Below are positions 1,304 to 24,009 of a DNA stretch of 64,000 nucleotides, one piece after another. A program made the position numbers and the translations under genes. The notes beneath the pieces were generated by a model. It was not told where the DNA came from, did no database searches, and saw only the letters and a program-made list of their open reading frames with translations. The DNA is taken from the NCBI GenBank assembly GCA_016932385.1, contig JAFGCY010000096.1:1-64000 (forward strand), read 5' to 3'. Position 1 is the first letter of the stretch. The number at the start of each line of letters is the position of its first letter. This DNA comes from a bacterium. GTDB taxonomy: Bacteria; 4484-113; JAFGCY01.

Positions 1304-1309
1304 TTAACC

Positions 1310-2065
1310 ATGAGATTCTGCTTGTTCGCGCTCTTATTGTTGAGCTGGCTGATTGCCAGCTGCGACCTGCTGTTCAGCTCCCAAGAACACATCGACCGCA
1401 CGCTCTGGCCGTTGCAGTCCGCGATCGAAGCTGAGCTCGGCCTGGCTGTCGATGCCGAAACCGATGGCCACGGGGACACCCCGGCGGGCTTGGTCGATCA
1501 CAGCTCCGAACCAACTGTTCCTCCGCCGGCCGCCCAGCCCACGCCCGAAACCGCCGCGGAACCAGGTAACGCGCCAGAGAGCGCGCCCGAGGATTCAGCC
1601 CCGGCTGTTGAGGAAACTGCCGAGTCGACCGTCCTTCCGCAAACCGCGCCCAATTCAGTCGCGGTCGTCTCCGTGGTCGACACGACATCGATTCCCACCG
1701 GTGAAGAGGAGCCCGATCCAGAATTGCTGGCGACGGCCCTCCGCCGTGAACGCGTCGTCCGCCAGGCCATCAACAACGCCCTGGTGGAAAACAAGCTGAT
1801 CAACGTCGTTCAACCGGACGAAGCCAATACAGAGTTGGCGCGCGCGGAAATCATCGCCAAGAATTCCGCCGCGTTAAGTACACCGCTGGCCGCCGAGATC
1901 GGCCAGGGAATCGGGGCCGCGGTGATCGTCTGCGCCCTGATCGACAAGCAAGGTGCCGAGGTGAATATCGTCGCCCAGCTGACCGTCAACGGCAAGCTGA
2001 TCTACCAGGACACGATCAAGGACTGGGAGATCGTTACGGCGGAGGAAGCCACCACAGAGGAATAG
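1310..2065 (+). CDS. Lipoprotein with LpoB/CsgG-like C-terminal region
   Basis: 251 residues. The N-terminus is a lipoprotein signal: a hydrophobic stretch with lipobox IAS before Cys18. Residues ~45-140 are a Pro/Ala/Glu/Thr-rich linker of low complexity. The C-terminal ~110 residues (from about residue 145) look folded, with a pattern of helix, 'NKLINVV' strand and 'IGQGIGAAVIVCALI' strand that recalls LpoB/CsgG-type outer-membrane lipoproteins. That resemblance is weak and is inference only. It probably shares a transcript with the upstream TPR gene (6-bp gap). The gene ends 3 bp before the convergent dtd stop codon. Confidence 0.65.
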   Translation: MRFCLFALLLLSWLIASCDLLFSSQEHIDRTLWPLQSAIEAELGLAVDAETDGHGDTPAGLVDHSSEPTVPPPAAQPTPETAAEPGNAPESAPEDSAPAVEETAESTVLPQTAPNSVAVVSVVDTTSIPTGEEEPDPELLATALRRERVVRQAINNALVENKLINVVQPDEANTELARAEIIAKNSAALSTPLAAEIGQGIGAAVIVCALIDKQGAEVNIVAQLTVNGKLIYQDTIKDWEIVTAEEATTEE

Positions 2066-2068
2066 GCT

Positions 2069-2524
2069 TTATCTCTTCTTCCTGGCGCGGCTGTCCAGCT
2101 GAATCGTGACCGGTCCTTCGTTGACGATCTCGACACGCATCCTGGCGCCAAACCGGCCGACACCGACCTTAATCCCCTGCCCCTGCAAGGCCGCGACCAG
2201 CTTCTCCAGCAAGCCCTCGGCCTCCGCGGGTTCCAATGCCGCGGTAAAGGATGGCCGGGTGCCGGAAGTAGTGTCGGCTGCCAGCGTGAACTGCGAAACG
2301 ATCAGCAGCTCGCCCCCGACATCGATCACGTTGCGGTTCATCTTGCCGGCAGCATCGTGGAAGACGCGCAGGGTCGCCAGCTTCCGTGCCATGAACTCGA
2401 CATCCGAAGCATCATCTCCCGCCAGCGCGCCCACGAACACACACAGCCCGTGGCCGATACAGCCGACGACCTGATCCTCCACGGTCACGCTGGCACTGCT
2501 GACGCGTTGGACCACCGCCCGCAT
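2069..2524 (-). CDS. dtd: D-aminoacyl-tRNA deacylase
   Basis: 151 residues, the normal length for DTD. The enzyme cleaves D-amino acids (and glycine from mischarged tRNA-Ala) off tRNA, a proofreading step in the cytoplasm. The start MRAVVQRVSSASVTVE is typical of the family. The catalytic loop SQFTLAADTTSGTRPSF and the Gly-cisPro motif in NEGPVTI are both present. The ATG at 2524 overlaps the rel stop codon by one base (TAATG), so translation is probably coupled. The rel-dtd pairing is common in bacteria. Earlier in-frame starts inside rel would add about 30 residues with no family similarity. Confidence 0.95.
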   Translation of the reverse strand: MRAVVQRVSSASVTVEDQVVGCIGHGLCVFVGALAGDDASDVEFMARKLATLRVFHDAAGKMNRNVIDVGGELLIVSQFTLAADTTSGTRPSFTAALEPAEAEGLLEKLVAALQGQGIKVGVGRFGARMRVEIVNEGPVTIQLDSRARKKR

Positions 2525-4836: not shown

Positions 4837-4837
4837 T

Positions 4838-6472
4838 TCAGTCCGCTAATCCAATTAACCTTAGCATAATAGTCTGCCGGTTATTGTAATTATCCGGATC
4901 AAACTCCACGATGGGACTGACCGATGCTCCCACTTCCAACCGCCTAAACAGGTGGCTTTGATTAAACCCGACGACCCGGGCCTGGCGGACGCCGTCGGTA
5001 ACTTGCAGATTCAGATGGGTTTTGTCGCGCCCCATGTAACCCACGCGTGAGATGCGCACCCCGCTGAGTACGGCCCGGGGAGGATCGTAGTCCTGCCCGA
5101 AAGGTGCCAACCGCCATAAGTCGGCCTCAAAGGCGGCTGAGATCTCGCCCAGTTCGACCTGCTCGGTTGCCGAGACCACCTGAGTCTGGATCCGGCCGGC
5201 CTGCGCCACTGCGGCAGCCCAGGCTGCCTGGAATTCGCCCCAACGCGGCTTTGCCACTTTGATCCCCGCCGCCTGGGCATGGCCGCCGAAGGTGTGCAGT
5301 TGATCCTGACAACTCCGTAACGCCTGCATCACATCCACATCGGTTGCCCGGATACTGCCTGTAATCAGGCCACGTTCGCCTGGCGCATCGGTGCAAACGG
5401 CCACGGCTTTGTTGGTCAGTTCCGCCGCGCGGGCAGCCACGATCCCCAGGACCCCAGGATGCCAGTCGGCGTCGTACAGCGCCAAGCCGGCGGCCTGCTG
5501 CTGGCTTTCCGCCTGGATGATCGCCGCACGGGTAATCAAGTCCGTGGTTTGCTTGCGTTCATCGTTGAGCTGGGCCATCAGGGCGGCCAGTTGCCCGGCG
5601 CGCTCCCGGCTATCCGCAGCCAGCAGATCGAAGGCGATCTTGGCTGTTTTCATCCGTCCCGCGGCATTCAGCAGCGGGACAATACTGAAGGCCGCCTGGC
5701 GACCGGTCAGCCTCGTCAATCCGTGCAGCCCGCTGATGCGCAACAGCGCCGCCAAGCCGTAGTTCAGCGTCTCGGGCAGCGCCGCCAGCGCATGGTGGGC
5801 CAGGATCCAGTTCTGGGGAACCAGGGGCACGACATCGGCGATTGTCGCCAAGCCCGCCAGCTCTGTTTCATCCGGTTCGGGCGCTTGCGCCGCTGTCATC
5901 TCGCAACGCAGTCGCCTGAGCAGATGGTAAACGAGCCCGGCGGCGCACAACGGCGGCAGCCGCTGGTCCAGGTGCGAGTTCACAATCGGGGCGGGCGGCA
6001 GCTCGGTGCCACAGGTGTGATGGTCCAACACCGCCACCTGCAATCCGTGATCGACGGCATACCTGATTTCTTCGAGGTTGGCGCTGCCACAATCGACGGT
6101 GATCAGTGTCTGATAGCCTTGCTCGATGGCTTGCCGGACGATCCCCATGTCCAGGCCGTATCCATGCTGCATCCGGCTGGGGATGAAGCTGTTGCCAGGC
6201 ACGTCATGCGCGCGGAGAAAGCGGTAGAGCAGCAGCGTCGCGACGACACCATCGACGTCGTAATCACCGTAAACCAGCGTTGCGCGCTGATCGGTGATCG
6301 CGGTCCGGATGATCCGGCTGGCTTCCGGCCAACCCCGGCAGTCTTCCGGTACCAGCAGGGTGTCGCCGCCGACGGCCTGGGCGAGTAGCTCGAGCCGTTT
6401 TTCCAGTCCGGCATCCGGCGGCAACAGCCTTCTCGTAAGTGGCGCGATCGAGTGGCGGTTGGCCGCGGACAC
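4838..6472 (-). CDS. recJ: Single-stranded-DNA-specific exonuclease RecJ
   Basis: 544 residues, near the length of bacterial RecJ. It digests single-stranded DNA 5' to 3' in recombination and repair, using a two-metal DHH active site. Visible motifs are YGDYDVDG (residues 68-75), VDCGSAN, the VLDHHTCG signature around residue 150, and the DHHA1 motif GGHAQAAGIKV at about 395. A C-terminal OB-like part follows. The start is GTG at 6472, 3 bp after the secF stop codon. It sits in the order secD-secF-recJ-rel-dtd, which recurs in many bacteria. Confidence 0.93.
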   Translation of the reverse strand: MSAANRHSIAPLTRRLLPPDAGLEKRLELLAQAVGGDTLLVPEDCRGWPEASRIIRTAITDQRATLVYGDYDVDGVVATLLLYRFLRAHDVPGNSFIPSRMQHGYGLDMGIVRQAIEQGYQTLITVDCGSANLEEIRYAVDHGLQVAVLDHHTCGTELPPAPIVNSHLDQRLPPLCAAGLVYHLLRRLRCEMTAAQAPEPDETELAGLATIADVVPLVPQNWILAHHALAALPETLNYGLAALLRISGLHGLTRLTGRQAAFSIVPLLNAAGRMKTAKIAFDLLAADSRERAGQLAALMAQLNDERKQTTDLITRAAIIQAESQQQAAGLALYDADWHPGVLGIVAARAAELTNKAVAVCTDAPGERGLITGSIRATDVDVMQALRSCQDQLHTFGGHAQAAGIKVAKPRWGEFQAAWAAAVAQAGRIQTQVVSATEQVELGEISAAFEADLWRLAPFGQDYDPPRAVLSGVRISRVGYMGRDKTHLNLQVTDGVRQARVVGFNQSHLFRRLEVGASVSPIVEFDPDNYNNRQTIMLRLIGLAD

Positions 6473-6475
6473 TGT

Positions 6476-7597
6476 TTACCGCCGGCGCTGCCTTTTGACA
6501 GCCTTCTTCTTCTTCAGCAGGTCCTGGGCATCGCTGACGATATCCGAAACGGCGGAGTCTTCCGCATCAGGCACGTCCAGTCTGATGGCGGCGGCGGAGC
6601 CACCTCCCTCAGCTTCGGCCTCGATCTTCATCTTACCGCCGGTGATCCACAGCATCAGCGGCGTCGCAATGAAGATTGAGGAGTAACCGCCGCTGATCAT
6701 GCCGATCAGCATCGCGGTCAGGAAGTCGCGGATGTTCTCGCCACCCAGGATCATCAGGGCTACGATCATGATGATGACGGTAATGACCGTATTCAACGAG
6801 CGCATCAGCGTCTGGTTGAGTGACAGGTTGCAGATTTGCGCCAGCGGGTGTTTGTCACCGTATTCACGGGCGTTTTCACGGATCCGGTCGAAAATAATGA
6901 TCGTGTCGTTGATTGAATAGCCGATGATGGTCAAGATGACCGCGATGAAGCTGTCCGAAACCTCGAGCTGCAACACCGAGGTGAAGCCCAGGGTGATCAG
7001 CACGTCGTGGATCAAGGCGGCGATCGCCGCCAGGCTCATCTGCCAACGGCCGAACCTCAGCAGGATATAGAGCATGATCAGCACGCAGCCGATGATCAGA
7101 GCCAACACGGCATTCTGGATCAACTCGGCCCCGACCGTCGGCCCCACGAAATCCTGCTCGATCGTTTCCGGGTTCATGCTGCCTTCGGTGGCGCTATAAC
7201 CACCGTAGGCGGTGCCCAGCTCTTCTTTCAATTCCGTCAGCCGGCGGGTTTTCGATCGCGAGATTTCACCTTCGGTCTCACCTTCGCCGGCCACACGCAT
7301 CCTGATCGTGATAATGTGCGGATCGGTTTGATCGACCTGGACAACGGCTTCCCCGTCGGCGTATTTGCTCACGATCGTCTTGACGTTCTGCCCATCAAAC
7401 TCGGCTTCTTCCAGCAGGCGCAGAATCAGCTTCTCGCCACCGGTGTAATGGATGCTCAGATTGAAGGCGGAACCCTGGTTCACCTTGTTGAGCACCATGA
7501 ACGCGATACCGATGGCAATGACGATCATGCTGATCGTCAGCCAGACGGGCGCTCTCTCGACATAGCGGAAATACTTACCTTCCCTCAGGACGTCCAT
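6476..7597 (-). CDS. secF: Protein translocase subunit SecF
   Basis: 373 residues, integral inner-membrane protein. With SecD it uses the proton gradient to help proteins finish crossing through SecYEG. One transmembrane segment near residues 15-35 is followed by a periplasmic domain and a cluster of five segments from about residue 165. SecF signatures include LVQNAV-like 'ELIQNAVLALIIGC', 'GYSINDTIIIFDRIREN' and 'LNQTLMRSLNT'. The C-terminal ~40 residues are a basic Lys/Arg-rich tail (KKKKAVKRQRRR). It starts 10 bp after secD and is probably co-transcribed with it. Confidence 0.95.
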   Translation of the reverse strand: MDVLREGKYFRYVERAPVWLTISMIVIAIGIAFMVLNKVNQGSAFNLSIHYTGGEKLILRLLEEAEFDGQNVKTIVSKYADGEAVVQVDQTDPHIITIRMRVAGEGETEGEISRSKTRRLTELKEELGTAYGGYSATEGSMNPETIEQDFVGPTVGAELIQNAVLALIIGCVLIMLYILLRFGRWQMSLAAIAALIHDVLITLGFTSVLQLEVSDSFIAVILTIIGYSINDTIIIFDRIRENAREYGDKHPLAQICNLSLNQTLMRSLNTVITVIIMIVALMILGGENIRDFLTAMLIGMISGGYSSIFIATPLMLWITGGKMKIEAEAEGGGSAAAIRLDVPDAEDSAVSDIVSDAQDLLKKKKAVKRQRRR

Positions 7598-7607
7598 CGT
7601 TTAACCT

Positions 7608-8882
7608 TTATGAATAGAGCTTGGGCTGGCGCACTGAACGAACCAGCAGCTCCATAATGTTACGAGTTACAAATACAGCCGAGAACATCGACAGCAAGAT
7701 ACCGATACTCAGTGTCACGGCGAATCCCTTCACCGGTCCCGTGCCGAAGAAATACAACACCGCCGCGGCGATCAATGTCGTGACGTTGCCATCCAAGATT
7801 GCCACCCAGGCCCGGGCAAACGCTGACTCCATCGCGGCCACCAGCGTCTTGCCCCAGCGCAGCTCTTCCTTTAATCGCTCGAAGATGATGATGTTTCCGT
7901 CGATCGCCATACCGATCGACAGCAGGAAACCGGCGATGCCCGGCAGCGTCAGCGTGGCGTTGATCAGGCTGAAGTAGCCCATGACCAGCACAACGTACAA
8001 AGACAGTGCCACCGCCGCTACGACACCGGACAAGCGATAAAACACCAGCATGTAGATCAGCACGATAATGAAGCCGACCAAGCCCGCGATATAGCTTTTA
8101 TTGATGCTCTGCTGGCCCAGGGTCGGACCGACGACGGAACTGGACAGCGCCGTCAGCGGAACCGGCAAGGCACCGGCGTTGAGCTGGCGCGTGATCTTAT
8201 CAACCTCTTCAATCGTGAACTGGCCTTCGATAATACCTTTGCCACCCCAGATCGGACCGTTGATGACCGGGCTGGTCAACACCACGCCGTCCAGCAGGAT
8301 CGTCAGATACTTGTGGACGTGATTGTTCGTGAAACTGCCAAACGCGTTCGCTGCTTCCGGCTTGAACTCAAATCCGATTGTCGGCCGGTTATTGGGGAAC
8401 AACGTATAAGCGCTTTTCAGATCGGCACCGGTCAGGATCGTCACGTATTTCGCGTACTCTTCCTTGCGCTCCTTGGTGCCTTCGATATTGAAGTTGTCAC
8501 CGGCTTCGAACGAATCGTCCCCCGTATTGACGAACTCCAACAGCGCCGTCTCGCCGATGATTTCCAGAATCGCATCCGGGTTCCTTTCGCCCGGCACCTG
8601 CAGCAGGATCCGGTCCACGCCGACCTGGGTCAGCGAGATCTCCTTGGTGCCTTGCGGGTCGACACGGTTGCGCACCACGTATTGCACGCCGCGCATCTGG
8701 TCATCGGTCGGCTGCTGCCCGTTCTCGGGTTCTGCCCGCAGCAGGACTTCGACGCCACCGCGCAGATCCAATCCCAACGTGACAATTGGCGCGTGTAAAT
8801 TCAGCGACCGGTATAGCGGATTTATCAAGGCCACCACGATAACGATCGCGATAATTATCCAGTTCCAAGCTCGACGGCTCAT
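7608..8882 (-). CDS. secD: Protein translocase subunit SecD
   Basis: 424 residues, on the short side for SecD. An N-terminal membrane segment (residues 7-25) precedes the periplasmic P1 region with the family motif LGLDLRGGVEVLL. Six membrane segments follow from about residue 245 (VGFIIVLIYMLVFY, 'GMAIDGNIIIFERLKEEL', 'NVTTLIAAAVLYFFGTGPVKGFAVTL'). It acts with SecF in protein export. A Shine-Dalgarno (TAGGAG) lies 8-9 nt upstream of the ATG, and an extended -10 element lies about 45 bp upstream, so this is probably the first gene of the secD-secF-recJ-rel-dtd operon. Confidence 0.95.
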   Translation of the reverse strand: MSRRAWNWIIIAIVIVVALINPLYRSLNLHAPIVTLGLDLRGGVEVLLRAEPENGQQPTDDQMRGVQYVVRNRVDPQGTKEISLTQVGVDRILLQVPGERNPDAILEIIGETALLEFVNTGDDSFEAGDNFNIEGTKERKEEYAKYVTILTGADLKSAYTLFPNNRPTIGFEFKPEAANAFGSFTNNHVHKYLTILLDGVVLTSPVINGPIWGGKGIIEGQFTIEEVDKITRQLNAGALPVPLTALSSSVVGPTLGQQSINKSYIAGLVGFIIVLIYMLVFYRLSGVVAAVALSLYVVLVMGYFSLINATLTLPGIAGFLLSIGMAIDGNIIIFERLKEELRWGKTLVAAMESAFARAWVAILDGNVTTLIAAAVLYFFGTGPVKGFAVTLSIGILLSMFSAVFVTRNIMELLVRSVRQPKLYS

Positions 8883-8923
8883 CTGTTTATGCTCCTAAAA
8901 GGGCCGGCAAAAGTCGAACGGGT

Positions 8924-8932
8924 ATTCTAGCA
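8924..8932 (-). promoter_or_regulatory. Extended -10 promoter of the secD operon
   Basis: On the minus strand TGCTAGAAT occupies 8932-8924, an extended -10 (TG-N-TAGAAT). 17 nt upstream lies TTGCAC (8952-8947), a weak -35. The same 9-mer TGCTAGAAT occurs upstream of two other transcription units here (40953 and 49949). Confidence 0.5.
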
Positions 8933-8988
8933 CCGGTGAAGTACACGTGCAACAAACATTCAAATATCCGAACAGAGCTGGTTGGTCG

Positions 8989-11900
8989 CTAGACCCCCCG
9001 TGCCGCTAAATGCAATTCGCCCGCCGGAATTGACCCCAGTTCGGTAACCATCATCCGCTGCTCGTTGCCGCGCCTGATTGCCATCAGCAAAGCTCCCGCC
9101 GTATCCAGGCTGGTGATCACCGGAATATTGTGCTCGACCGCCTCGCGGCGAATCCGCCGGGCCTCCAACTCGGCCTTCTGATTGTCGCTGACCGTGTTGA
9201 TGACCAGTTGGAACCGGTTGCTTAAAATTTCGTCGACAATGTGCGGCCGCCCTTCCGACAGCTTGCGCACGCTGCGCGCCTCGATCCCGTGGCTGCGCAG
9301 AAACTCGGCCGTTCCCGCCGTGGAATAAACGGTAAAGCCCAACTCGGCAAATCCCCGAATGACCTCCAGTGCATCGTCTTTGTCCTGATCGGCCACCGTG
9401 GCCAGCAGCGCCATGTTTTGGCACTGATCCAGGGTCTGGACCCGAATTCCGGCGGCGCTCATCGCCTTCTTCAAGGCCGTCGGGTAGTCGCCGGCAATGC
9501 CCATTACTTCACCGGTCGACTTCATCTCCGGGCCCAGGTGGACGTCCAGGTCGGTCAGCTTCTGGAAACTGAAAACGGGTGCCTTGACCGCGACCAGATC
9601 ACCCACCGGCTGCAGGCCCAGCGGGAAGCCGCTGTTGGCCAGCGAGTCACCCATAATGCCCAGCATCGCCAGCTTGATCATCGGCACCCCGGTGATTTTG
9701 CTGATGAAGGGCACCGTGCGGCTGGCCCGCGGATTGACCTCGATTACATAGACCTCGTCTTCGCGGTCGACAACGAACTGGATGTTGATCAGGCCCTGGG
9801 CGTGGATTGCGCGCGCGATCTTCGTGGCGTAATCGACGACCTTGTCGATGATCTGCTGGTTGAGCGTCTGCGGTGGATAAACAGCCATCGAGTCGCCGCT
9901 GTGGATGCCGGCGCGTTCGATGTGCTCCATCACGCCGGGGATGATCACGTTGACCCCGTCGCTGACCACGTCGACTTCCACCTCGCGGCCGGGGAAGAAT
10001 TTATCGATCAACAGCGGCTGCCCCATGAAGGCGTGGCTGTTGTCCTTGATGTAAGTCACCAGGTATTCAGAGTTGTAGACGACGCGCATCGCCCGGCCGC
10101 CGAGGACATAGCTCGGCCGGACCAGAATCGGGTAGCCGATCCGCTCCGCGACGTCGATCGCCTTGGTGTAGTCCATGACGGTTCCGCCGGGCGGCCGCGG
10201 GATGCCCAGCCTTTCCATCAGCGCATCGAAGCGCTCACGGTCCTCGGTCTCATCGATCGCGTCCTGGGTGATGCCCAGAATACGTACGCCGGACTGGGCC
10301 AAGGGCGCCGCCAGGTTGATCGCCGTTTGCCCGCCGAACTGGCAGACCACGCCCAGCGGCTTCTCGCGCTTGATGATTTCGTGCACGGACTCGTAGCTGA
10401 GCGGTTCGAAGTACAGGCTGTCGGACACATCAAAGTCGGTAGAGACGGTTTCGGGATTGTTGTTGACGATGACAGCCTCGTAACCGAGTTCCTGCAGGGC
10501 GATCAGCGAGTGCACCGAGCAATAATCAAACTCGATGCCCTGCCCGATCCGAATCGGCCCGCTGCCCAAGACAAGCACCTTGCCCTTTTTGCCGGACTTC
10601 TGGCCCTTTTGCCGCTCGCTGATCAGCACATCGCTTTCTTCTGCATAGCTGCTGTAGAAGTACGGCGACTGGGCGAAGAATTCGGCGGCGCAGGTATCGA
10701 CCGCCTTGTAGGACGGCTCGGTATGCAGCTGGTGGCGTAGCATCGCGACCTGCGAATCGTCGACTTCCAGGATCCGCGCGGCCAGCTCATCGCTGAGCCC
10801 GCAGCGTTTCAGTTCCGCCAGCAGCTTGGAATCCATGACGCTGCCGGCCTTGCGCAGGTCCAGTTCCAGCTTGACCATCGCTTCGAACTTCTCGATGAAA
10901 TAGTGGCTCATGCCCGTCAGCCGGTGCAGATACTCGGCAGAGTAGCCGCGATAGATGGCCTCGAACAGCGCGAACACGCGCCCGTCGGTGGGCTCGGCCA
11001 GGAATTTGTGCAGGTCGCGGTCGCTGATGTCCTTCCAGCGGTTGGTGCGGAAGCTCCTAAGCTTGACCTCCAGGCTGGCCAGCGCCTTCAAAAACGCCCC
11101 CTCGAAGGAGCGATCGATACTCATCACTTCGCCCGTGGCTTTCATCTGCGTGCCCAGGTGCCGGTCGGCCTCGCGGAACTTGTCGAACGGCCACTTGGGG
11201 ATTTTCAGTACGACATAGTCCAGCGCCGGCTCGAAGCTGGCCATCGTCTGGCCCGTGACATGGTTGACTATCTCGTGCAGGCGCTTGCCCAGGGCAATCT
11301 TGGCCGCCACCCGGGCAATCGGATAGCCCGTGGCCTTGCTGGCCAGGGCGCTGGAGCGGCTGACGCGCGGATTGACCTCGATTACGTAGAACTTCAACTC
11401 CGAGGGATGCAGCGCGAATTGCACATTACAGCCACCCTCGATCTTCAGCCCGCGGATGATTTTCAGCGCGGCGCTTCTGAGCAGCTGGTATTCCACGTCG
11501 GAAAGCGTGAGGCTGGGCGCGACGACGATGCTGTCACCGGTGTGGACGCCCATCGGGTCGAGGTTTTCCATGTTGCAGACAGTGATGCAGTTGTCATCGG
11601 CGTCGCGCATCACCTCGTACTCAATCTCCTTCCAGCCGATCACGCATTCCTCGATCAGGATCTGGTTGTTCATGCTCTGCAGCAGGCCGGTTGTCACGTA
11701 ATCGATCAGCTCCTTCTGGTTAAATGCGATCCCCCCGCCGGTGCCGCCCAGCGTGTAGCCGGGCCGGATAATCAGCGGAAAACTCATCTTTTTACCGATC
11801 GCCATCGCCTCTTCGAAGCTTTCGGCAATGTAACTCTCCGGAATTGGCATGTCCAATTCCTGCATCGTGGCCTTGAACTGCTCGCGGTCCTCGGCGCGCT

Positions 11901-14298: not shown

Positions 14299-16362
14299 CT
14301 AAAACCCCAGCAGTTGAGTTTCGATACTGCGCCGTCGGTCTTTCACGTACTGCTTCAGTTCGTCCACGCGATTCAGATAGCCATCTTCGTCGAATTGCCG
14401 GCAGGGATCGGCCAGGACATCCGCTAACACTTTATCAACGGCCACGTCGATCCTGTCCAGCACTTGTTCCTCGCTGAATGACCACTCCAGAGCTTCGGCC
14501 AGGCTGGCTTTAAACTCATCGCGCAACGCCGGCGACTTGTAATACAAGACTGTGATCTGGCTTTTGTTACAGGCGAAATCCAAAGGCTGTTCTGCGTCAA
14601 TCCGCTGGATCTTCTGGCCCTCGACCTGATCGAAGCGATGCATGTGCCCCCAGCTGAAATCAAGGTCCCAGGGAATGATCATCCATCTGCCCGTGCCGTA
14701 GCCATCGAAGTACAGGTAGAAGTTATGCATCCAGTTATCGTGGGCGCTGATCAACCGGCAGGCGACAAGGTAGTTGGTCAAGGCATCCAGGTCGACCAGT
14801 TGGCCCAGAGCCTCGGCTGGCTCGGCTGGGTCGCTTTGCATGATCGCGTCCAGCGCATCGGCCAACTGCGCCAAGCTATCGAAGCCAGGGCTGTCACCCA
14901 GCTGCTTTTCGAACTCGCCGCCGAAATCCTCGGCACACTCGCGCGGATACAGGGCGGCATTGTACTCGGCCTTGTACAGGTCGCCACGGTTGTCCAGGCC
15001 GCTGGCGGCCAACCACTCACCCCGGGGGTTCTCGACCTCCGTATACAAGCCGGCGAACCGGTCATTGATACGCAGATGAACAAAACGCGCGCGCGGCGTT
15101 GTCACACCCAGCTCCAACATCAGGTCATAGGCCAGCTTTTCGCGCAGCATCGTCGGATCGGTACAGACGGGATTCAGGTTAAGGATCCGGCGCTTGTAGC
15201 CCCATTCGGGATCGTCGTACGCTGTCTTCTTGTCCAGCTTCACCTTCCAGGCCATCTTGGGATACTGGCGGCTGTTCCGTCCGCGCAGGCGGACCTCGGC
15301 TTTTTCGAACTCCCGCCCGGCGATCGTAATGTCCGCCTTGCGATACTCCTCGGAGTATGGGTGTGATTGCAGAAAGTCCCAGTTCTTGTCGGAAAAGTGC
15401 AGCTCGTACACTGGCAGCTGCGTCTTGTAGGCTGCGATGGATCCAAGCTGCTGGGTGTATCCATCCGCTCCGGCCAGGCTAACCTGGTAATCGCCCTCCC
15501 CGGCCAGCTGCACGCGAAAACTGGCGATTCCAGCTGTAAACGGCGAGGATTCCAACACGCTGAAGCCCTGATTTTCGCAGCTCAACTCACAGGCGACGTC
15601 ATAGTCCGGACAGATCCGGCCGTTTTGATCGCAGGAAAACGCGTTGAATTCCAGCGGATAACCGCAGGCTGACCGTTGCGGCAGATCGGTTTGATAACTG
15701 AAGCAATAGCCAATTGCCAGGTCAAGTCCGACAATCACCCGATGGATCCGAACGCTGTTAGCCGATTCAACCTGGATCAGTAGATAGGCGAATCCTGCAT
15801 CGCTGATTACCTGGGCATCAGCCGGCACACACAAAGCTGTTTGCGAAATCTGGCCTGCCTGTGGACTGGAGCAGCCATCATCCTCAAGACTTGAATCGTT
15901 CTCGCCCATTGACCCGGTCGGCTGCCGATCTGGTTGGTCTACCGCATACCCCAGTGTGATCCACCGCGGCGACTGGAAATCAGCCAGTGAAACTAGACAG
16001 CTATTAGCCCTGGGGCGCTCCTCTTGGCTGTCCGGTTTCAACAACTCGATTTCGACGGAGTGGATCACATCGCCTTGGATCAGCCGGCCGATTCTGTATA
16101 CGACATAGCCAGGTTGAGCCCCGGGCTGCAGCGACGCGTCCTCCCATTTCCAGAAGGCCTCCCCGCCGGACTCGGCAAACCAGGCACCCGCCTGCTCGAC
16201 ACGACTGGTGGTAATCACCGGGGCTGCAGTTACTTCTCGCCGCGTTAACTCGGAAATCGAAAGCGGGGCGCGATGATTGGCTTGGTTGCCTGCATCCCCT
16301 TCACAACCACTGAGAACGGCCAGCAATATTACGAGGAGAAACGTTGCTCCGCGTGATCCCAC
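14299..16362 (-). CDS. CotH kinase-like family lipoprotein
   Basis: 687 residues. Lipobox LSG precedes Cys20, so the protein is probably membrane-anchored outside the cytoplasm. An N-terminal ~330-residue extension rich in Cys has no family I recognise. The CotH domain starts near residue 335 (YELHFSDKNWDFLQSHPYSE), continues with VRLRGRNSRQYPKMAWKVKL and ends around 600 with HNFYLYFDGYGTGRWMIIPW and DLDFSWG, the signature of this protein-kinase-like fold. Spore-coat CotH phosphorylates coat proteins; here a sporulation role is not implied. GTG start with AGGAAG upstream. It follows tRNA-Val by 44 bp and may share its promoter. Confidence 0.8.
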   Translation of the reverse strand: MGSRGATFLLVILLAVLSGCEGDAGNQANHRAPLSISELTRREVTAAPVITTSRVEQAGAWFAESGGEAFWKWEDASLQPGAQPGYVVYRIGRLIQGDVIHSVEIELLKPDSQEERPRANSCLVSLADFQSPRWITLGYAVDQPDRQPTGSMGENDSSLEDDGCSSPQAGQISQTALCVPADAQVISDAGFAYLLIQVESANSVRIHRVIVGLDLAIGYCFSYQTDLPQRSACGYPLEFNAFSCDQNGRICPDYDVACELSCENQGFSVLESSPFTAGIASFRVQLAGEGDYQVSLAGADGYTQQLGSIAAYKTQLPVYELHFSDKNWDFLQSHPYSEEYRKADITIAGREFEKAEVRLRGRNSRQYPKMAWKVKLDKKTAYDDPEWGYKRRILNLNPVCTDPTMLREKLAYDLMLELGVTTPRARFVHLRINDRFAGLYTEVENPRGEWLAASGLDNRGDLYKAEYNAALYPRECAEDFGGEFEKQLGDSPGFDSLAQLADALDAIMQSDPAEPAEALGQLVDLDALTNYLVACRLISAHDNWMHNFYLYFDGYGTGRWMIIPWDLDFSWGHMHRFDQVEGQKIQRIDAEQPLDFACNKSQITVLYYKSPALRDEFKASLAEALEWSFSEEQVLDRIDVAVDKVLADVLADPCRQFDEDGYLNRVDELKQYVKDRRRSIETQLLGF

Positions 16363-16594: not shown

Positions 16595-17524
16595 TTAGCC
16601 GATGCCGGCAGCCTGTTTGGCTGCAGCCTGGGCGGGAATCTCGGTGTAATGTCCCGGCCGCATCGCATATTCCATCCACTTGCTTCTCAGCAGGGTGAAG
16701 ATCTTGCCCGGCTTGCGGTCGCCGATCGGCCGGCTGTCGATCTCGACCACCGGAATCAAGTCGGCCGCGGTACCGGTCAGCCAGCACTCATCCGCCGTGT
16801 ACAGGTCGTAAGTCAGGAAGGTGCCCTCCTCGACCGGAATCCCGTTTTCGTGGGCCAGTTCCATGATGCTGTCCCGGGTGATTCCCTGGAGGATGCCGTG
16901 GAAGGGGGCCGGCGTGAAGAGCTTGCCGTGCTTGACGAAGAAGATGTTGTCCGCCGTGCATTCGCCGACATAGCCTTCTTGTGTCAACATCACGCCTTCG
17001 TCAGCGTTGGCACGGTTGACCTCGATCAGCCCCAGGATATTGTTCAGGTAGTTCAGCGATTTAACCCGCGCCGGCAAGCTCTGGACGCTGTTCCGGCGGG
17101 TATTGCAAGTGATCACGTTAAGGCCTTTCTGGTAGAGCTCTTCCGGATAGAGCTTGATGGAGGCGGCAATGCTGAAAATCGTCGGCTGGCCTGAGCATTT
17201 CTTCGGGTTGATTCCCAGGTCACCGACTCCGCGCGTCGCCACGAGACGGACGTAGGAGACGCCCTCGTGCAGCCCGTTGACCGCGATCGATTCGCAGACG
17301 ATGTCCATCAATTCCTGTTCTGAATAGCCCAGGTTGATTTCCAGGAAATGCGCGCTGTCGAAAAATCGGTCGATGTGCTCCTTGAGCTTGAACACCTTGC
17401 CATCCCACGCCTTGATGCCCTCAAACAGGCCGTCGCCGTAGAGCAGGCCATGGTCAAAAACACTGACCTTCGCCTCTTCCTTGGTCACGTACTTTCCATT
17501 CAGCCAGATCAACATGTCCGACAT
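16595..17524 (-). CDS. ilvE: Branched-chain-amino-acid aminotransferase
   Basis: 309 residues, PLP enzyme of fold-type IV. It transfers the amino group between glutamate and the 2-oxo acids of Leu, Ile and Val. Family features are LIWLNGKYV at the N-terminus, VFDHGLLYGDGLFEGIKAW (~residues 23-41), the Schiff-base lysine within ARVKSLNYLNN (~155-165) and DEGVMLTQEGYVGECTADNI (~180-200). A GGGAGG site 6 nt before the ATG at 17524 decides the start. A separate promoter upstream suggests its own transcript, apart from the preceding leftward genes. Confidence 0.92.
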   Translation of the reverse strand: MSDMLIWLNGKYVTKEEAKVSVFDHGLLYGDGLFEGIKAWDGKVFKLKEHIDRFFDSAHFLEINLGYSEQELMDIVCESIAVNGLHEGVSYVRLVATRGVGDLGINPKKCSGQPTIFSIAASIKLYPEELYQKGLNVITCNTRRNSVQSLPARVKSLNYLNNILGLIEVNRANADEGVMLTQEGYVGECTADNIFFVKHGKLFTPAPFHGILQGITRDSIMELAHENGIPVEEGTFLTYDLYTADECWLTGTAADLIPVVEIDSRPIGDRKPGKIFTLLRSKWMEYAMRPGHYTEIPAQAAAKQAAGIG

Positions 17525-17619: not shown

Positions 17620-19752
17620 TTATGGTTCCGCTACCACCGGCCGGCGGTTTCCAAACCGCTCGGAATTGATCTCCGCCAGCCGCGTAAAACGCGCTTCTTC
17701 TATTACTTGCCCGAAGCTTCTGATCGGGGCGAGTTTAAAGCCGTGTCTGTGTCCGATTTCGGCGATCAGATTCACCTGCTCGGGCTTGATCTCCCTTCCG
17801 AGAGTGAAATTGCCGAACCGCTTCTCCAGGGCCAGCAACAGCGTTTCGGCCAGGCAGGCGTAGATTACACCCGGCGGCAACCCGATGTCGTAATTCAATT
17901 CGGCCCCTTCCGGTAAAAGGACCTCGCCGCTTTCGATCACGAGGATGTCATTCCGACGCTCGGCAGCCTGCTGCTTGATATCCGGCGGACGGGCAACGTC
18001 CAGCACCAGGCAGCCCGGCTTCAACTCCGCTACATCGATCACCGGATCCACCGACGATGTCGTGGTAATGATGCCATCAGCCAGCGGCAGGAAATCGCTG
18101 ACTTGGCGCGAGAGTTTGATCTTGCCTTTGAGCTTCGGGTTTTCCGTCTCAATAAACCGCGACAGGCTCAGCAATTTTTCCGGACGCGGGCTGACCATGT
18201 ACAGCTCAGCGACGCGCGGGGCTGTCAACCTGGCGCAGATGGACCCGATGCTGCCGGTGGCGCCGATAATCAGCAGCCGGGCCTTGTCGATCTCGATGCC
18301 GCAGCGCCCGGCGGCCTGTTCCAGCGTCAACAGCGTTGCCGCCACCGTATAGCTGTTGCCACTGGTGACACCGATCGGCGAGGACTTGCTGACCGTCAGG
18401 CCGGCGTCCCCGGCCACGCTGGTGTAAGCTCCCAGGCCCATCAGCTTGCAGCCATGCTCAGCGGCATCCTCGGCCACCTGCAGCAACCGTTTGTAGAGAA
18501 ACTCCTCGGGAAAGCGCATGATGGCCTTGCTGGTCATCGGAATGGCGTAGAGCACGCCTTCGGCCTTGGCGCCGGTAGCGCTGACTACATTGCGCAACGT
18601 GCCGACCGGCCAGGGCTTGATGTGCGCCACGGCGTCCTCGATCATCCGCCGCGGCACGAAGTGCTGCATGGCGCGCACTGCGGGAATCCGCTCGATGTAT
18701 TTGAACGACAGCGGATGGATGACAAAGCAGAATTTCGCCACTTCGTCACTCGGACTAAGCTCGATATTTTTCGGGGGCTGGGCCAGCTCCGGGGCTCGGG
18801 GCGGCAGTTCCACCAGGGCCAGATCCTCGCTGCCTTCGCGCTCGAGGTCGACAATATGTGGCGTCAGCGCCATAGCGTGCAACTGGTCCAGGAAGAAGTC
18901 TGTTTTATTGGTCGTATCGCCATCGCCGGCATACAGTTTCAAGGCCGCTTCCAGAACCGGTTGAGGAACGTAAGTACCGTCGATCACCGGCGTCAGGGAA
19001 ACAACATATTTGGCCTTGCGCTCGGCGAACATTTCCAGTTCAGCATCGTTGTGAATGTTCGTAAAGATGATCTTGCCGGCCAACGTGTCCGGCATATACC
19101 GCTGGAAATAGGAGATCCCGCCGACGATGACGGTCGACTGGCGGAAATAGCGCTGAAAGCGCGGCATAATCGGCGGCTTGCGCCGCGCCGAAGGCCAGAA
19201 CCAGTTTGCCGGCGTTTTGGCCACCGCCCGTGCCAGCCGCTTGGCCGTCGTGATAAATTTCTGCAGCGAGTAGATGGGGATTCCCAGCCGGAAACCGTAC
19301 AGCATGTCGCCAAACAGCATCCGGTTGGTGAAGTTACTCAGCACTTCAGCCGAACCGTAACGGTTCAGCCCGCAGAAAAAAAGCACCTGCTTGCCGCTGA
19401 TCTCATCTTTGAGCCGGTCGGCCGCCTGGCGCACCAGGTAGCGCTCCAAGCTGGCCTGCAAAGCCGAGCCGTCGCTGAACCGGTCCCCGTACTTGTTTAA
19501 ATCCAGGCTGCGCCAGATGAAGTCATGCCGGTAGGTTTCGTCGCCCAGGTAAAAGGAGGTCGCAATGCCTTCCAGGGCGACGGCATCATAGTCTTCCAGC
19601 GCCCGCCGGATCTCCTGGCGGATCAGATCGAGGTCCTGTTCGACCGGGATCACGTCCCAACTGATCGGCCCTTGCGGCAGATTGCAGCCGATATCATAGA
19701 TCGCGTTACGCGTCAGCAAACTCAGACAAGCAATTCGGCGCGGCTTACTCAT
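17620..19752 (-). CDS. Two-domain protein: 'quinate 5-dehydrogenase'-like domain fused to an acyl-ACP reductase (AAR)-like domain
   Basis: 710 residues. Residues ~1-295 resemble a family often labelled quinate 5-dehydrogenase (VLFFCGLNRYGSAEVL, FGDMLYGFRLGIPIYSL, YFQRYMPDTLAGKIIFTN); that label is not proof of activity. Residues ~340-680 resemble cyanobacterial long-chain acyl-ACP reductase: FVIHPL, KLMGLGAYTSVAGD (437-450), the nucleotide-binding loop GATGSIGS (497-504), and YACLAETLLL with Cys633 at the place of the acyl-accepting cysteine, then FGNFTLGREI and GHRHGFKLAPI. Inference: an NAD(P)H-dependent reductase acting on an acyl thioester or related compound. The ATG overlaps the glmM stop (ATGA), so the two are coupled. 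An earlier in-frame start inside glmM is less likely. Confidence 0.75.
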   Translation of the reverse strand: MSKPRRIACLSLLTRNAIYDIGCNLPQGPISWDVIPVEQDLDLIRQEIRRALEDYDAVALEGIATSFYLGDETYRHDFIWRSLDLNKYGDRFSDGSALQASLERYLVRQAADRLKDEISGKQVLFFCGLNRYGSAEVLSNFTNRMLFGDMLYGFRLGIPIYSLQKFITTAKRLARAVAKTPANWFWPSARRKPPIMPRFQRYFRQSTVIVGGISYFQRYMPDTLAGKIIFTNIHNDAELEMFAERKAKYVVSLTPVIDGTYVPQPVLEAALKLYAGDGDTTNKTDFFLDQLHAMALTPHIVDLEREGSEDLALVELPPRAPELAQPPKNIELSPSDEVAKFCFVIHPLSFKYIERIPAVRAMQHFVPRRMIEDAVAHIKPWPVGTLRNVVSATGAKAEGVLYAIPMTSKAIMRFPEEFLYKRLLQVAEDAAEHGCKLMGLGAYTSVAGDAGLTVSKSSPIGVTSGNSYTVAATLLTLEQAAGRCGIEIDKARLLIIGATGSIGSICARLTAPRVAELYMVSPRPEKLLSLSRFIETENPKLKGKIKLSRQVSDFLPLADGIITTTSSVDPVIDVAELKPGCLVLDVARPPDIKQQAAERRNDILVIESGEVLLPEGAELNYDIGLPPGVIYACLAETLLLALEKRFGNFTLGREIKPEQVNLIAEIGHRHGFKLAPIRSFGQVIEEARFTRLAEINSERFGNRRPVVAEP

Positions 19753-21104
19753 TTTCGCCCTTTGTCCCAATCCCCGAACGCGCGGCAGACCGCGGCATTG
19801 GCCGCTTGGCACCGCGCCCGATCCTGTGCTTCCGTCAGAATCCGCACGACGTCCTCGGTACCGGATGGTCGCAGGTAAAACCTGACGTCGCGATACTCTC
19901 GCTCAATGGCCGCCAGCCGACCAAGCAGGCTTTTGCTCTTGCGCCAGGCTTCCTTGTCCGACACCGACAGGTTGGTCAGCTGCTGCGGATACTCGGGAAA
20001 ACCGGCGACCAGCTGGCTGAGCGGCTGTTTAGTGCGCGCCGCCAGCGCCGCCAGCTGGGTACCGACCAGAATTCCGTCGCCGGTGGGTACTTTGTCCCGC
20101 AAAATGATATGACCCGACTGCTCGCCACCCAGATCCAGTTTCTGCCTCTTCATCTCCGCCAGTACTTTGATATCGCCCACCTCAGTGCGCACCAGGCGGA
20201 TTCCCAGCTCGCGCAGAGCCAGTTCCACGCCCATATTCGTCATGTGCGTCATCACCGCGGCCTTTTGCCGCCGATAACGGCTCAGCTGGGTGGCAAACAA
20301 CGCGATGATCTTGTCGCCGCTGACTTCTTTGCCGTTTTCGTCGACGGCCTTGATTCGGTCGCCGTCCCCGTCGAAGGCCAAGCCCAGGTCCGCCTTTTCT
20401 CGGCGCACGCGTCGGGCCAAACCCTTCAGGTTTGTCGCGCCGCAATTGACATTGACCCGGTTGCCGTCGAACCGGTCGTTGATCGGCACAACCTTGAATC
20501 CCAGGTGCGTAAAAACCAGCGGAGCCAACTCGGCCGTGGCGCCGCAGGCGCAGTCCAGCACCACGCGCAGCTTGCGTTGCGGCTTGGTGCGGCCCAAGGT
20601 TTTAACGGCGAAAGACCGGTAAAACGCGCTCGCATCATATTGCTCCACCTGGCCGAAGTTGCGCTGCTCCACCGCGGGAAGTTCGCCGCTGAAAATAAAT
20701 CGCTCCAACGCTGTTTCGGCTGTTGGATCGAGCTTGTAACCCTGCCGGTTGAAGAACTTCAGCCCGTTGTCCGGCACGGGATTATGCGAGGCGGTAATCA
20801 TTACCCCACCAAGGCAGCCTTGGCTAATGACCAGCAGAGGCACCAGCGGCGTCGGAACAATGCCCAGGTCCAGCACGTCGCAGCCACCGTAGGTAATCCC
20901 GCTGATCACGGCGCTTTTGAGCGTAGTTGTCGACAGCCGGCTGTCACCCGCCACGGCGAAAACCGGACGCTGGTTGGACCTATACCGCTGCCGGTCCGTC
21001 GCCAGAATTTGCGCCAAGCCGAACGCGGCCCGTAACGCAAGCTCGGGCGTCAGTTTGTCGCCGGCCCGTCCGCGGATGCCGTCGGTACCAAAGAGCTTCT
21101 GCAT
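19749..21104 (-). CDS. glmM: Phosphoglucosamine mutase
   Basis: 451 residues. It interconverts glucosamine-6-phosphate and glucosamine-1-phosphate on the way to UDP-GlcNAc and peptidoglycan. Visible landmarks are KLFGTDGIRGRAG at the N-terminus, the phosphoserine loop GVMITASHNP (Ser106), the metal loop FDGDGDRIKA and the C-terminal phosphate loop RPSGTEDVVRI. It begins directly after the cdaR stop codon, completing the cassette cdaA-cdaR-glmM. In Firmicutes GlmM binds and inhibits CdaA, so synthesis of the wall precursor and of c-di-AMP may be linked here too. Confidence 0.95.
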   Translation of the reverse strand: MQKLFGTDGIRGRAGDKLTPELALRAAFGLAQILATDRQRYRSNQRPVFAVAGDSRLSTTTLKSAVISGITYGGCDVLDLGIVPTPLVPLLVISQGCLGGVMITASHNPVPDNGLKFFNRQGYKLDPTAETALERFIFSGELPAVEQRNFGQVEQYDASAFYRSFAVKTLGRTKPQRKLRVVLDCACGATAELAPLVFTHLGFKVVPINDRFDGNRVNVNCGATNLKGLARRVRREKADLGLAFDGDGDRIKAVDENGKEVSGDKIIALFATQLSRYRRQKAAVMTHMTNMGVELALRELGIRLVRTEVGDIKVLAEMKRQKLDLGGEQSGHIILRDKVPTGDGILVGTQLAALAARTKQPLSQLVAGFPEYPQQLTNLSVSDKEAWRKSKSLLGRLAAIEREYRDVRFYLRPSGTEDVVRILTEAQDRARCQAANAAVCRAFGDWDKGRK

Positions 21105-22331
21105 TTATTGCTGTTCTCCGCTTGGGATAATTGTGACCTGCACGCTCTCGGGATCGATTTTAACCTGCCTGAGCCCCAGCGGCAAATGGACTTGCGGGAT
21201 CAACCGGTGCTCCCCGGCGCCGAGGTCGGCGACATCCAGGCTGGCCACAATATCGGTGACATCGTCCGATTCCAGCGGAGTCAAAGTCTCGGAGCGGATC
21301 GCAATCTCCGGCGGTGTCACGATGTAATCGAAGCCCTCGCGCTTGTTGACCAATTCGACATCGATCGCTTTGGCGCCGATTTCGTCGAACGACAGCAGCT
21401 GGACTGAAACGCGGCAGTCATGCGGCAGGCGCACCCCTTCCGGAATCGTGAACGGATAGATCAGGTCGACGGTCGTCGTGAAGCTCTCCGTCACATTAGT
21501 CAGATCGATCGGCGTGGTGGTAACCGCGAATACGCCCTCCTCCACGAGCTCGGCGTCAACCGGTATCGTCTGGGGATTGGCGATCAGCTTGTCCAGCAGC
21601 AGGTCCTCCGGCAGCCGGCCCTGGTAGCTCGGATAGACCTTGAGCACCTTGATCGACGCGATCGGCACCAGCTCCATGGCGTAGCGGACCTGAGCCGGCC
21701 TGACCACGAGTGCGGCGTTGGTGATCTGGAAATCGTTCTTATCGTAGAGCTTGATCGGCAACATCGTGCGCCGGATGTCCTGGGTGACTCCCGATACATC
21801 CGGCTCGACCTGGACAACGCTGATCCGTTCCACGACCGGCCGCGGTCCCGTGATCTCCACGCTGTGGTGGGACAGGTTTTCTTCGCCGATGTTGTAATGC
21901 TCATCCACCTCGCCTTGCCGGTCGATCTCGATCGGTTTGGTGACGGTGATCTTCTCATCGAGGATCACGCGGACGTGGGAAATGTCCTGATAAGTTACCT
22001 GGACATCGCCGACCTCGGGAGCGTTGATATTCACGTTGTATACGCCCGGCTCATCCAAACCTTCGAGATTGACGATGGCATTCCGCCGGCCGGGCAACTG
22101 GCGCACTTTGGAGTACTTACCGGTTACCTTGATACGGATCTGCTCCGGCAGGCTGTGGGGATCCGAGACAACCAGCGACTCATTGAGATTTTGGAGTTCC
22201 AGGGGGAACGTGAAGTTCTGGGTGAAGATCGGGTCAACCACCTTAATTACGTAGATCGACATGACCAGTGCCAGCACGATCGATAGCACTTTCAGCCAGA
22301 GGTTGTTCGTCAGACGTGCAAACAGGTTCAT
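21105..22331 (-). CDS. cdaR: CdaR, YbbR-domain regulator of diadenylate cyclase
   Basis: 408 residues. One N-terminal membrane segment (about residues 10-31, NNLWLKVLSIVLALVMSIYV) anchors an outward-facing chain of four YbbR-type beta domains; repeat marks include IRIKVTGKYSKVRQLPG and ITVTKPIEIDRQGEVDE. In Firmicutes CdaR interacts with CdaA and tunes c-di-AMP production. It sits between cdaA (9 bp upstream) and glmM (no gap), which is the usual order. The YbbR repeats diverge from one another, so the domain count is approximate. Confidence 0.88.
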   Translation of the reverse strand: MNLFARLTNNLWLKVLSIVLALVMSIYVIKVVDPIFTQNFTFPLELQNLNESLVVSDPHSLPEQIRIKVTGKYSKVRQLPGRRNAIVNLEGLDEPGVYNVNINAPEVGDVQVTYQDISHVRVILDEKITVTKPIEIDRQGEVDEHYNIGEENLSHHSVEITGPRPVVERISVVQVEPDVSGVTQDIRRTMLPIKLYDKNDFQITNAALVVRPAQVRYAMELVPIASIKVLKVYPSYQGRLPEDLLLDKLIANPQTIPVDAELVEEGVFAVTTTPIDLTNVTESFTTTVDLIYPFTIPEGVRLPHDCRVSVQLLSFDEIGAKAIDVELVNKREGFDYIVTPPEIAIRSETLTPLESDDVTDIVASLDVADLGAGEHRLIPQVHLPLGLRQVKIDPESVQVTIIPSGEQQ

Positions 22332-22340
22332 AATGTCAAC

Positions 22341-23156
22341 CTAAATAAACGCCGGCCGCGGTACGATACTGGCAAATGTTTCATTGGGTTCAACCACGGC
22401 TTTGAGTTGCTCGATGAATTGGGCTTCATCCAGCCCGCGCGCCAGGCGCCCGTTAAAGGCAACCGAAATCTCGCCGCTTTCCTCGCTGACCACGACCACG
22501 ACGGCATCGCAGCGCTCACTTAGGCCCACTGAGGCTCGATGTCGCGTCCCCAGTTCATCCGAGATGAACTTCGATTCCGAGATCGGCAGAAAATTGCCGG
22601 CGGACCAAATCCGGTCCTCCCTGATCACCACCGCGCCGTCATGCAGCGGATTATGTTTCTCAAACAGGCTCTGTATGAAGCGCTTGTCCGGCAAAGCCTG
22701 CAGTTCCGTGCCGGGGACAAGGTGCTCGATGACCGGCTCCTTGCGCTCGACAACGAAAATTGCGCCAATCCGTTTTTCGCTGAGCTCCTGGGCCGTCTTG
22801 GTCAGAATGTCCAGGATCGGGCTCTGTTCCTCGGCCTCCTCGCGCGTCATGAACCATTCCAGGAGCGCGTAGGTTTTGCCGGCACGTTCCAGCATCTTGC
22901 GGATCTCCGGAGCCAGGATCACCAACAGCGCCAGCGGACCATAGAACAAAATCTGGTCGAGGATCGTTTTCAGCGTAATCATCTGGAACTGGGTGCAGAC
23001 GAAGTACACGGCACCCAGTGTGATGATGAAGCCGATTACCACTGTGCCCTTGGTGCCACGGGCCGCGAGCAGCAAATAGTAAAACAAGGTCGCCACCGCC
23101 AGCATCTCGATCAGCTTGGGCCAACTGATGCTCAGAAACGCTGCGATTGCATCCAT
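22341..23156 (-). CDS. cdaA: Membrane diadenylate cyclase CdaA
   Basis: 271 residues. Three hydrophobic segments fall in residues ~14-85, followed by a linker helix and the DAC catalytic domain from about residue 100. Both active-site motifs are intact: DGA (173-175, in NPLHDGAVVI) and RHR (205-207, in GTRHRASVGLSE). The enzyme joins two ATP into cyclic di-AMP, a signal controlling potassium, osmolytes and cell-wall homeostasis. An AAAGGTGG ribosome site before the ATG at 23156 decides the start; a start 27 nt earlier would overlap the upstream gene. The order cdaA-cdaR-glmM is conserved. Confidence 0.93.
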   Translation of the reverse strand: MDAIAAFLSISWPKLIEMLAVATLFYYLLLAARGTKGTVVIGFIITLGAVYFVCTQFQMITLKTILDQILFYGPLALLVILAPEIRKMLERAGKTYALLEWFMTREEAEEQSPILDILTKTAQELSEKRIGAIFVVERKEPVIEHLVPGTELQALPDKRFIQSLFEKHNPLHDGAVVIREDRIWSAGNFLPISESKFISDELGTRHRASVGLSERCDAVVVVVSEESGEISVAFNGRLARGLDEAQFIEQLKAVVEPNETFASIVPRPAFI

Positions 23157-23166
23157 GGAACCACCT

Positions 23167-24009
23167 TTAAAATCTGCGCGCAAACGCGTAATGTGATTTG
23201 AAATAGGCCTCGCTGAGCGGCGTGATTACCACGCCGCCTTTACTCTGGCTGGCATGGATGAAGCGTCCGCCGCCGATGTAGATGCCGACATGGCTAAGGT
23301 ACCGCGTGTCCTTGTCATCACGGAAGAAAATGATATCGCCGGTCCGCAGGTTCTCGTGATCGATGTACCGGCCGTGCAGGGCCTGCAAGCTGGCGCGGTG
23401 GACCACGTCAATCCCCTGGTTGGCCAGGCAGACCTGCGTCAAGCCGCTGCAGTCGATACCGTCGGTCGTTGTACCGCCCAGCACGTATTTGGTACCCAGG
23501 TACTGCCGGGCATCCTCCACCAAACGCCGTCCGTTGATCACCGGCTGGTAGTCCACGTTGTAATCGTACTGCGCCGGGTATTTCTTGCCGTTATGCGCAA
23601 CCAGCATTTCCTCGCTGCCGTCCCCGCGGAGTTTCATCGATTCAATCTCCTCGTCCGGTGCCACCTGCCAGTAAGAGAGATCGACCTGCTCGGGCATCGG
23701 CATGCTGCCGCTGATATGCAGGTTCTCCGGCAGCGGTACATTCGTGATTTCCGCGGCGAAGAACGGAATGTAAAGGAACGACTGGGTTTCCTCGTCCATC
23801 AACAGGTAGAATTCATCCACTGAGGTAACGGATACGAACTCGTCGCCGACCTCGGCATAGCGGACGACTTCGGCGTCCGACTGGGCGCTGCGCAGCAACC
23901 CGGTGGAAGAATCGATCACGCGGATCATGCATTCGTCGGCCCACGCCGGCGCGGCCAAGCAGCACCAGGCGATCAGCCAGAGCCATCTGAACCCGCACCA
24001 CTTAGCCAT
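23167..24009 (-). CDS. Secreted NlpC/P60 peptidoglycan hydrolase
   Basis: 280 residues. A signal peptide (about residues 1-24, cut after AWA) is followed by a region resembling bacterial SH3 folds (~27-95) and a C-terminal NlpC/P60 domain from ~160. The catalytic cysteine is in DGIDCSGL (Cys187); His240 is in LSHVGIYIGGG and His252 in FIHAS. Such enzymes usually cut peptide bonds in the peptidoglycan stem peptide. It sits between rpsI (11-bp gap) and cdaA (10-bp gap), linking wall cleavage to the c-di-AMP and GlmM genes behind it. The exact cleavage site cannot be read from the sequence. Confidence 0.88.
   Translation of the reverse strand: MAKWCGFRWLWLIAWCCLAAPAWADECMIRVIDSSTGLLRSAQSDAEVVRYAEVGDEFVSVTSVDEFYLLMDEETQSFLYIPFFAAEITNVPLPENLHISGSMPMPEQVDLSYWQVAPDEEIESMKLRGDGSEEMLVAHNGKKYPAQYDYNVDYQPVINGRRLVEDARQYLGTKYVLGGTTTDGIDCSGLTQVCLANQGIDVVHRASLQALHGRYIDHENLRTGDIIFFRDDKDTRYLSHVGIYIGGGRFIHASQSKGGVVITPLSEAYFKSHYAFARRF

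Follow-up and report, generated by a model that had tools for sequence, protein, structure and literature searches.

A PigE/AAR-type thioester reductase domain and an uncharacterized partner family, fused in UBP7 and paired across bacteria

The fusion gene and its surroundings in UBP7

The window analyzed here is a stretch of 64,000 nucleotides, in which all the genes discussed below lie on the minus strand. At positions 17620 to 19752, a single open reading frame encodes a 710-amino-acid protein consisting of two halves, hereafter N and C. The N half (residues 1 to 304, positions 18841 to 19752) belongs to an uncharacterized family and is predicted to adopt a two-lobed alpha/beta fold. It is followed by a linker (residues about 305 to 337, positions 18742 to 18840), for which model confidence is low at residues 306 to 327, and by the C half (residues 340 to 698, positions 17659 to 18735), assigned by profiles, PDB matches, and fold to the thioester reductase domains of the acyl-ACP reductase (AAR)/PigE type. 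The C half carries the LMGLGAYTS motif (residues 437 to 445, positions 18418 to 18444; read from the sequence and the homologue alignment), the GATGSIGS nucleotide-binding loop (residues 497 to 504, positions 18241 to 18264), and three further landmarks read from the translation and kept in homologues, i.e., YACLAETLLL (residues 631 to 640), FGNFTLGR (residues 646 to 653), and HRHGFKLAP (residues 668 to 676). The first of these three includes Cys633 (positions 17854 to 17856), the predicted acyl-cysteine.

Upstream of the fusion gene lies glmM (positions 19749 to 21104), whose TGA is overlapped by the ATG of the fusion gene in an ATGA (...AAAATGAG...), preceded by a ybbR/cdaR-like gene (positions 21105 to 22331), assigned by operon position and reading, and by a cdaA-like diadenylate cyclase gene (positions 22341 to 23183), assigned by reading. 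The open reading frame, the ATGA overlap, and all of the AAR landmarks had been described in an earlier note on this DNA and were borne out here. The next gene downstream is ilvE (positions 16595 to 17524), encoding a branched-chain aminotransferase. Downstream of ilvE, a gene for a 687-amino-acid protein (positions 14299 to 16362, minus strand) resembles, by eye, a CotH-type kinase lipoprotein.

UBP7 is a small candidate phylum, sampled here by ten species, and an orthologue of the fusion gene was found in all ten genomes, as eight complete fusions and two copies cut by contig ends. The genes cdaA, ybbR, and glmM lie upstream in 6/6 UBP7 loci with enough flank. The distance from glmM to the fusion gene ranges from an overlap up to 2 kb, and a metallo-hydrolase-like gene is inserted between them in three loci. 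Of the suggested tie to envelope precursor supply through glmM, what stands is the shared synteny below cdaA-ybbR-glmM in UBP7; the spacing is not conserved, and the contexts in other lineages are different. We therefore rejected coupling to glmM as the key to the function of the fusion and read this link as no more than local synteny.

The reductase half and the partner half

The C half matches the reductase part, and that part alone, of the PigE profile NF053554 (NCBIfam; E = 1.3e-60, residues 340 to 698 against model positions 1 to 359, 205.7 of 850 bits), and the class III aminotransferase domain that is the fusion partner in PigE is absent from the 710-amino-acid protein according to the same profile. 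The match to the AAR profile TIGR04058 is also significant (residues 462 to 673, E = 6.5e-21) but covers profile positions 127 to 335 only, with 75 bits against a curated equivalog cut-off of 449.7 bits, so that the C half is not an AAR sensu stricto. The PDB sequence search gave the same order, with PigE (4ppm) at 1.7e-40 and AAR (6jzq) at 2e-16, and it placed Cys633 opposite Cys294 in the AAR chain, which in the Synechococcus enzyme is the acyl-cysteine. Cys633 and G497 to I502 of the loop are invariant in 76 fused homologues. The AlphaFold model built from these homologues (pLDDT 88.6, pTM 0.84) has as its best fold matches AAR with NADPH and a stearyl group (6jzy; TM 0.83 normalized to AAR, E = 9.5e-20) and the carmabin terminal domain TAD. 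From the alignment and the fold match together, Cys633 is predicted to lie near the bound nucleotide. By these comparisons, the C half is a PigE/AAR-type thioester reductase, nearer to the reductase domain of PigE than to cyanobacterial AAR. Hence, the proposal that residues 340 to 680 are AAR-like holds for fold, sequence, and the Cys294-aligned Cys633, whereas the AAR cut-off is not reached and PigE is closer. Since the AAR match is confined to the last two thirds of the profile, the acyl-binding part differs, and the C half may act on something other than a long-chain acyl group. A weak likeness to glutamyl-tRNA reductase was also seen in the NCBIfam and PDB searches.

With the PigE reductase domain and TamH, the C half shares the alignment over the full 340 to 698 stretch and the catalytic cysteine, as well as the standing of a noncyanobacterial acyl-thioester reductase, but PigE and TamH chains carry a class III aminotransferase where the fusion carries the unrelated N family. 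It differs from cyanobacterial AAR, beyond the partial profile match, by the extra N half and by its presence in UBP7 without the aldehyde-deformylating oxygenase (ADO). The carmabin TAD (9e4s, 9e56) is of the same fold class (TM 0.66 to 0.75 to the target), and in 9e56 a cysteine of this domain is disulfide-linked to dephospho-coenzyme A; it differs as part of a peptide synthetase line and has about 19% identity. Thioester reduction by PigE was seen in cell lysate, the purified protein alone being inactive in vitro, and PigE Cys296 overlays AAR Cys294 (PMC8341465). TamH is a second such acyl-thioester reductase from a noncyanobacterium (PMC9594044). The suggestion that such a route would be new outside cyanobacteria thus falls, as PigE and TamH already reduce acyl thioesters.

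The N half, by contrast, resembles no named family. The Pfam and PDB sequence searches gave chance-level matches only, and no NCBIfam model matched. It had been read as a quinate 5-dehydrogenase, a label that found no profile support: the quinate/shikimate 5-dehydrogenase profile was absent from the N half up to E = 1 and, with the limit raised to E = 10, from eight further N proteins, and PF01488 touches only the C half (residues 487 to 600, E = 1e-4, below its cut-off). The two-lobed model is confident (pLDDT 93.6), but its fold matches are weak, with TM mostly 0.3 to 0.5 to sugar-binding proteins, AAR, and dehydrogenases, including glutamate dehydrogenase and malic enzyme, and the viral fold library gave no match. 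The idea of two related units in one chain is supported as to the two-part fusion and not as to the relatedness, for the profile-profile comparison of N with C gave probabilities of 0.2% and 0.4% and their fold resemblance is weak (TM about 0.4 to 0.5), which argues against N as a second AAR-like unit. An acetate/butyrate-kinase-like (ASKHA) identity, considered from the reading of an SLGSSxRD stretch, was likewise rejected, with no PDB sequence match and no such fold among the matches listed.

The SLGSSxRD stretch, which stand-alone N proteins and others of the family conserve, is missing from the fused N half of UBP7. This half also lacks the glycines expected at residues 36, 39, and 246 and the aspartate expected at residue 212 (numbering of the window protein) and retains D94, G95, D149, G211, P221, K227, and P255. 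Moreover, all ten UBP7 genomes contain a second, stand-alone, intact N gene (L014 to L023). As the fused copy has lost conserved residues while an intact copy is kept in every genome, the fused N half of UBP7 is probably structural rather than catalytic. In the genome of the window (G000), the stand-alone N gene lies on contig C113 (L025, positions 8065 to 8970) and has the motif lost from the fused copy. The neighbors of the stand-alone gene vary among UBP7 genomes.

Distribution of the two halves across bacteria

A contig scan for homologues, run with an alignment query, gave 73 fused N-C genes among the best 80 loci; the remainder are three pairs of neighboring separate genes (L108, L114, and L115), three contig-cut loci, and one locus with no detected N. 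In the maximum-likelihood tree, the UBP7 proteins form one clade (support 100/98), nested in a clade of fused forms (100/99) from Wallbacteria, Chloroflexota, Acidobacteriota, Myxococcota, and Calditrichota, and the separate-gene forms fall mostly outside it. Given this single, well-supported, multiphylum clade, the N-C fusion is old and widespread in bacteria and not peculiar to the genome of the window.

Outside the fused forms, N and C occur as separate genes, often adjacent. Among 385 genomes, C was found in 53, N in 43, and both in 42 (Fisher p = 1.2e-44). In the lone genome with N but no C (G006), the N copy is truncated by the end of its contig, and C without N was found in 11 of the 385 genomes. 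By GTDB family, with 257, the highest family code encountered, used as the total number of families, C is present in all 24 families that have N (Fisher p = 3.6e-26). N thus occurs only where C is, yet C occurs without N, so that N depends on C and not the reverse. In plasmid records, the C matches were mostly PigE-like aminotransferase fusions, and a search of the same records for N found nothing.

The fusions and neighbors of C in other lineages are largely acyl or lipid enzymes. In Thermaceae, a PlsY-type acyltransferase (PF02660) and C share one fused chain, with matches in 50/50 genomes searched, nearly all over the full fusion length; most of these 50 genomes keep a separate PlsY paralogue of normal size, and all 50 have a stand-alone N. 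One such PlsY-C fusion (L185, positions 6365 to 8026) is from genome G027, placed in Thermus through its superoxide dismutase, of which the nearest PDB entry, 1mng, is a T. thermophilus protein. Class III aminotransferases are fused to C in G054, G128, and G265 (L178, L180, L182, and L183), and N, a class III aminotransferase, and C form operons of separate genes in G287 and G150 (L188, positions 4698 to 8435, and L189, positions 5994 to 9857), the former (G287, L188) with a polyketide-cyclase/lipid-transport gene. Three Chloroflexota loci that are close relatives of one another (L086, positions 5080 to 8666, L095, and L097) have a wax ester synthase gene overlapping the N-C gene at its 3' end, and in one acidobacterial locus (L082, positions 3 to 3659) such a gene follows the N-C gene closely; the Chloroflexota cases belong to one recent clade and thus represent few independent events. 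Other neighbors encode NAD epimerases, alpha/beta hydrolases, an acyltransferase, an iron alcohol dehydrogenase, and a patatin. In two loci (L190 and L191), the N-C gene pair lies directly upstream of greA and lysS, and greA follows C in 6 of 53 loci examined, for no evident reason.

Proposed reaction and lipid products

We consider it rather probable that N and C make up a two-part acyl-thioester reductase that produces a lipid-derived aldehyde, with N as the obligate partner domain. This reading is based on the conservation of Cys633 and of the loop, the N-C partnership, the acyl and lipid enzymes among the fusions and neighbors, and the precedent of PigE and TamH. The C half very probably converts activated fatty acids to reactive aldehydes. 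By analogy with AAR and PigE, the acyl group would move from acyl-ACP (or acyl-CoA) to Cys633, where the thioester would be reduced by NAD(P)H held in the GATGSIG loop and the aldehyde released. N would work only together with the reductase, most likely by docking the acyl donor or by guiding the aldehyde to the following enzyme, and the aldehyde would most likely feed an unusual lipid. Homology, fold, residue conservation, co-occurrence, fusions, and neighbors were computed here, and it is from them that we infer which reaction takes place in the UBP7 organism and on which substrate, what N does, and what is finally made.

For UBP7, an alkane route was discarded, as ADO (PF11266) was absent from all ten UBP7 genomes while the positive control was detected. 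No wax ester synthase (WS/DGAT) was detected in UBP7 either, in a search whose control was also silent, and a wax ester route inside UBP7 was set aside with that reservation. No dedicated aldehyde-using partner was found adjoining the UBP7 fusion gene.

The overlapping wax ester synthase genes in Chloroflexota, together with the synthase near the acidobacterial locus, suggest another division of labor, since this enzyme requires an alcohol: C would make the aldehyde and N, as an NAD(P)-dependent aldehyde reductase, would convert it to a fatty alcohol that goes into wax esters or into ether lipids, the pair being a four-electron reductase. The two-lobed alpha/beta fold of N and its weak matches to AAR, glutamate dehydrogenase, and malic enzyme are consistent with this. 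However, N has neither a GxxGxxG motif nor a dehydrogenase profile match, it persists where C is joined, by fusion or in an operon, to an aminotransferase, which needs the aldehyde and not the alcohol, and the synthase went undetected in UBP7 (with the silent control). We regard such a reductase as unlikely. As suppliers of aldehyde or alcohol to a wax ester synthase in Chloroflexota, the N-C genes could be compared with the fatty acyl-CoA reductases FarA, AcrB, Acr1, and FcrA. Of these, Acr1 is an SDR-family enzyme and FcrA a homologue of HMG-CoA reductase, and a review describes none of the four as a reductase of the AAR type joined to an N half (PMC11948995).

The aminotransferase-C fusions and the N-aminotransferase-C operons point instead to a lipid amine, with the aldehyde transaminated as happens with PigE and TamH; in UBP7, this step would fall to the adjacent IlvE or to a class III aminotransferase. 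Of nine UBP7 genomes with an ilvE gene, seven have it directly downstream of the fusion, and Thermaceae, all of which have C and N, contain glyceroyl-alkylamine lipids (PMC3398001, PMC9636437). Nevertheless, the IlvE of the window scores above the housekeeping cut-off (TIGR01122, 287.5 bits against 245.55) and is the sole branched-chain aminotransferase homologue in its genome, which led us to reject it as a dedicated partner, and the class III homologues of UBP7 do not adjoin the fusion gene. We regard a lipid amine as slightly less likely still than the alcohol. By a narrow margin, the least probable of the three is that C has a small nonlipid thioester or a substrate resembling tRNA, or that it regulates the cdaA-glmM operon without redox activity: the unmatched acyl-binding N-terminal part of AAR, the likeness to glutamyl-tRNA reductase, and the position downstream of cdaA-ybbR-glmM could fit, but conservation extends to Cys633, the GATGSIG loop, and the PigE-type core in its entirety, and the enzymes joined to C elsewhere are acyl or lipid enzymes.

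The two-part aldehyde-forming reductase remains our preferred reading. We found no paper on the N family or on the N-C pairing among the open-licence papers searched, and the pairing appears to be undescribed, the noncyanobacterial AAR-like reductase itself being already known. The lipids of Thermus and Deinococcus contain a long-chain alkylamine, described in passages that name no gene for it (PMC3398001, PMC9636437); this alkylamine might be linked to the N-C system, and the PlsY-C fusion of Thermaceae is a candidate enzyme for the alkylamine step in the glycolipids of Thermus.

Our analysis replaces a misleading dehydrogenase label for the N half with a strict genomic pairing, that of a reductase of known kind with an unannotated family, which together make a seemingly unnamed two-part system. 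It also offers gene candidates for the aldehyde- or amine-forming step behind the alkylamines of Thermus and the wax alcohols of Chloroflexota. More tentatively, and with less confidence than in the reaction itself, N and C could constitute a two-component enzyme, widespread but so far undescribed, that forms fatty aldehydes with N as the obligate activator of AAR-type reductases, and that would supply the alkylamine of Thermaceae (with PlsY-C), the wax alcohols of Chloroflexota, and a lipid of UBP7.
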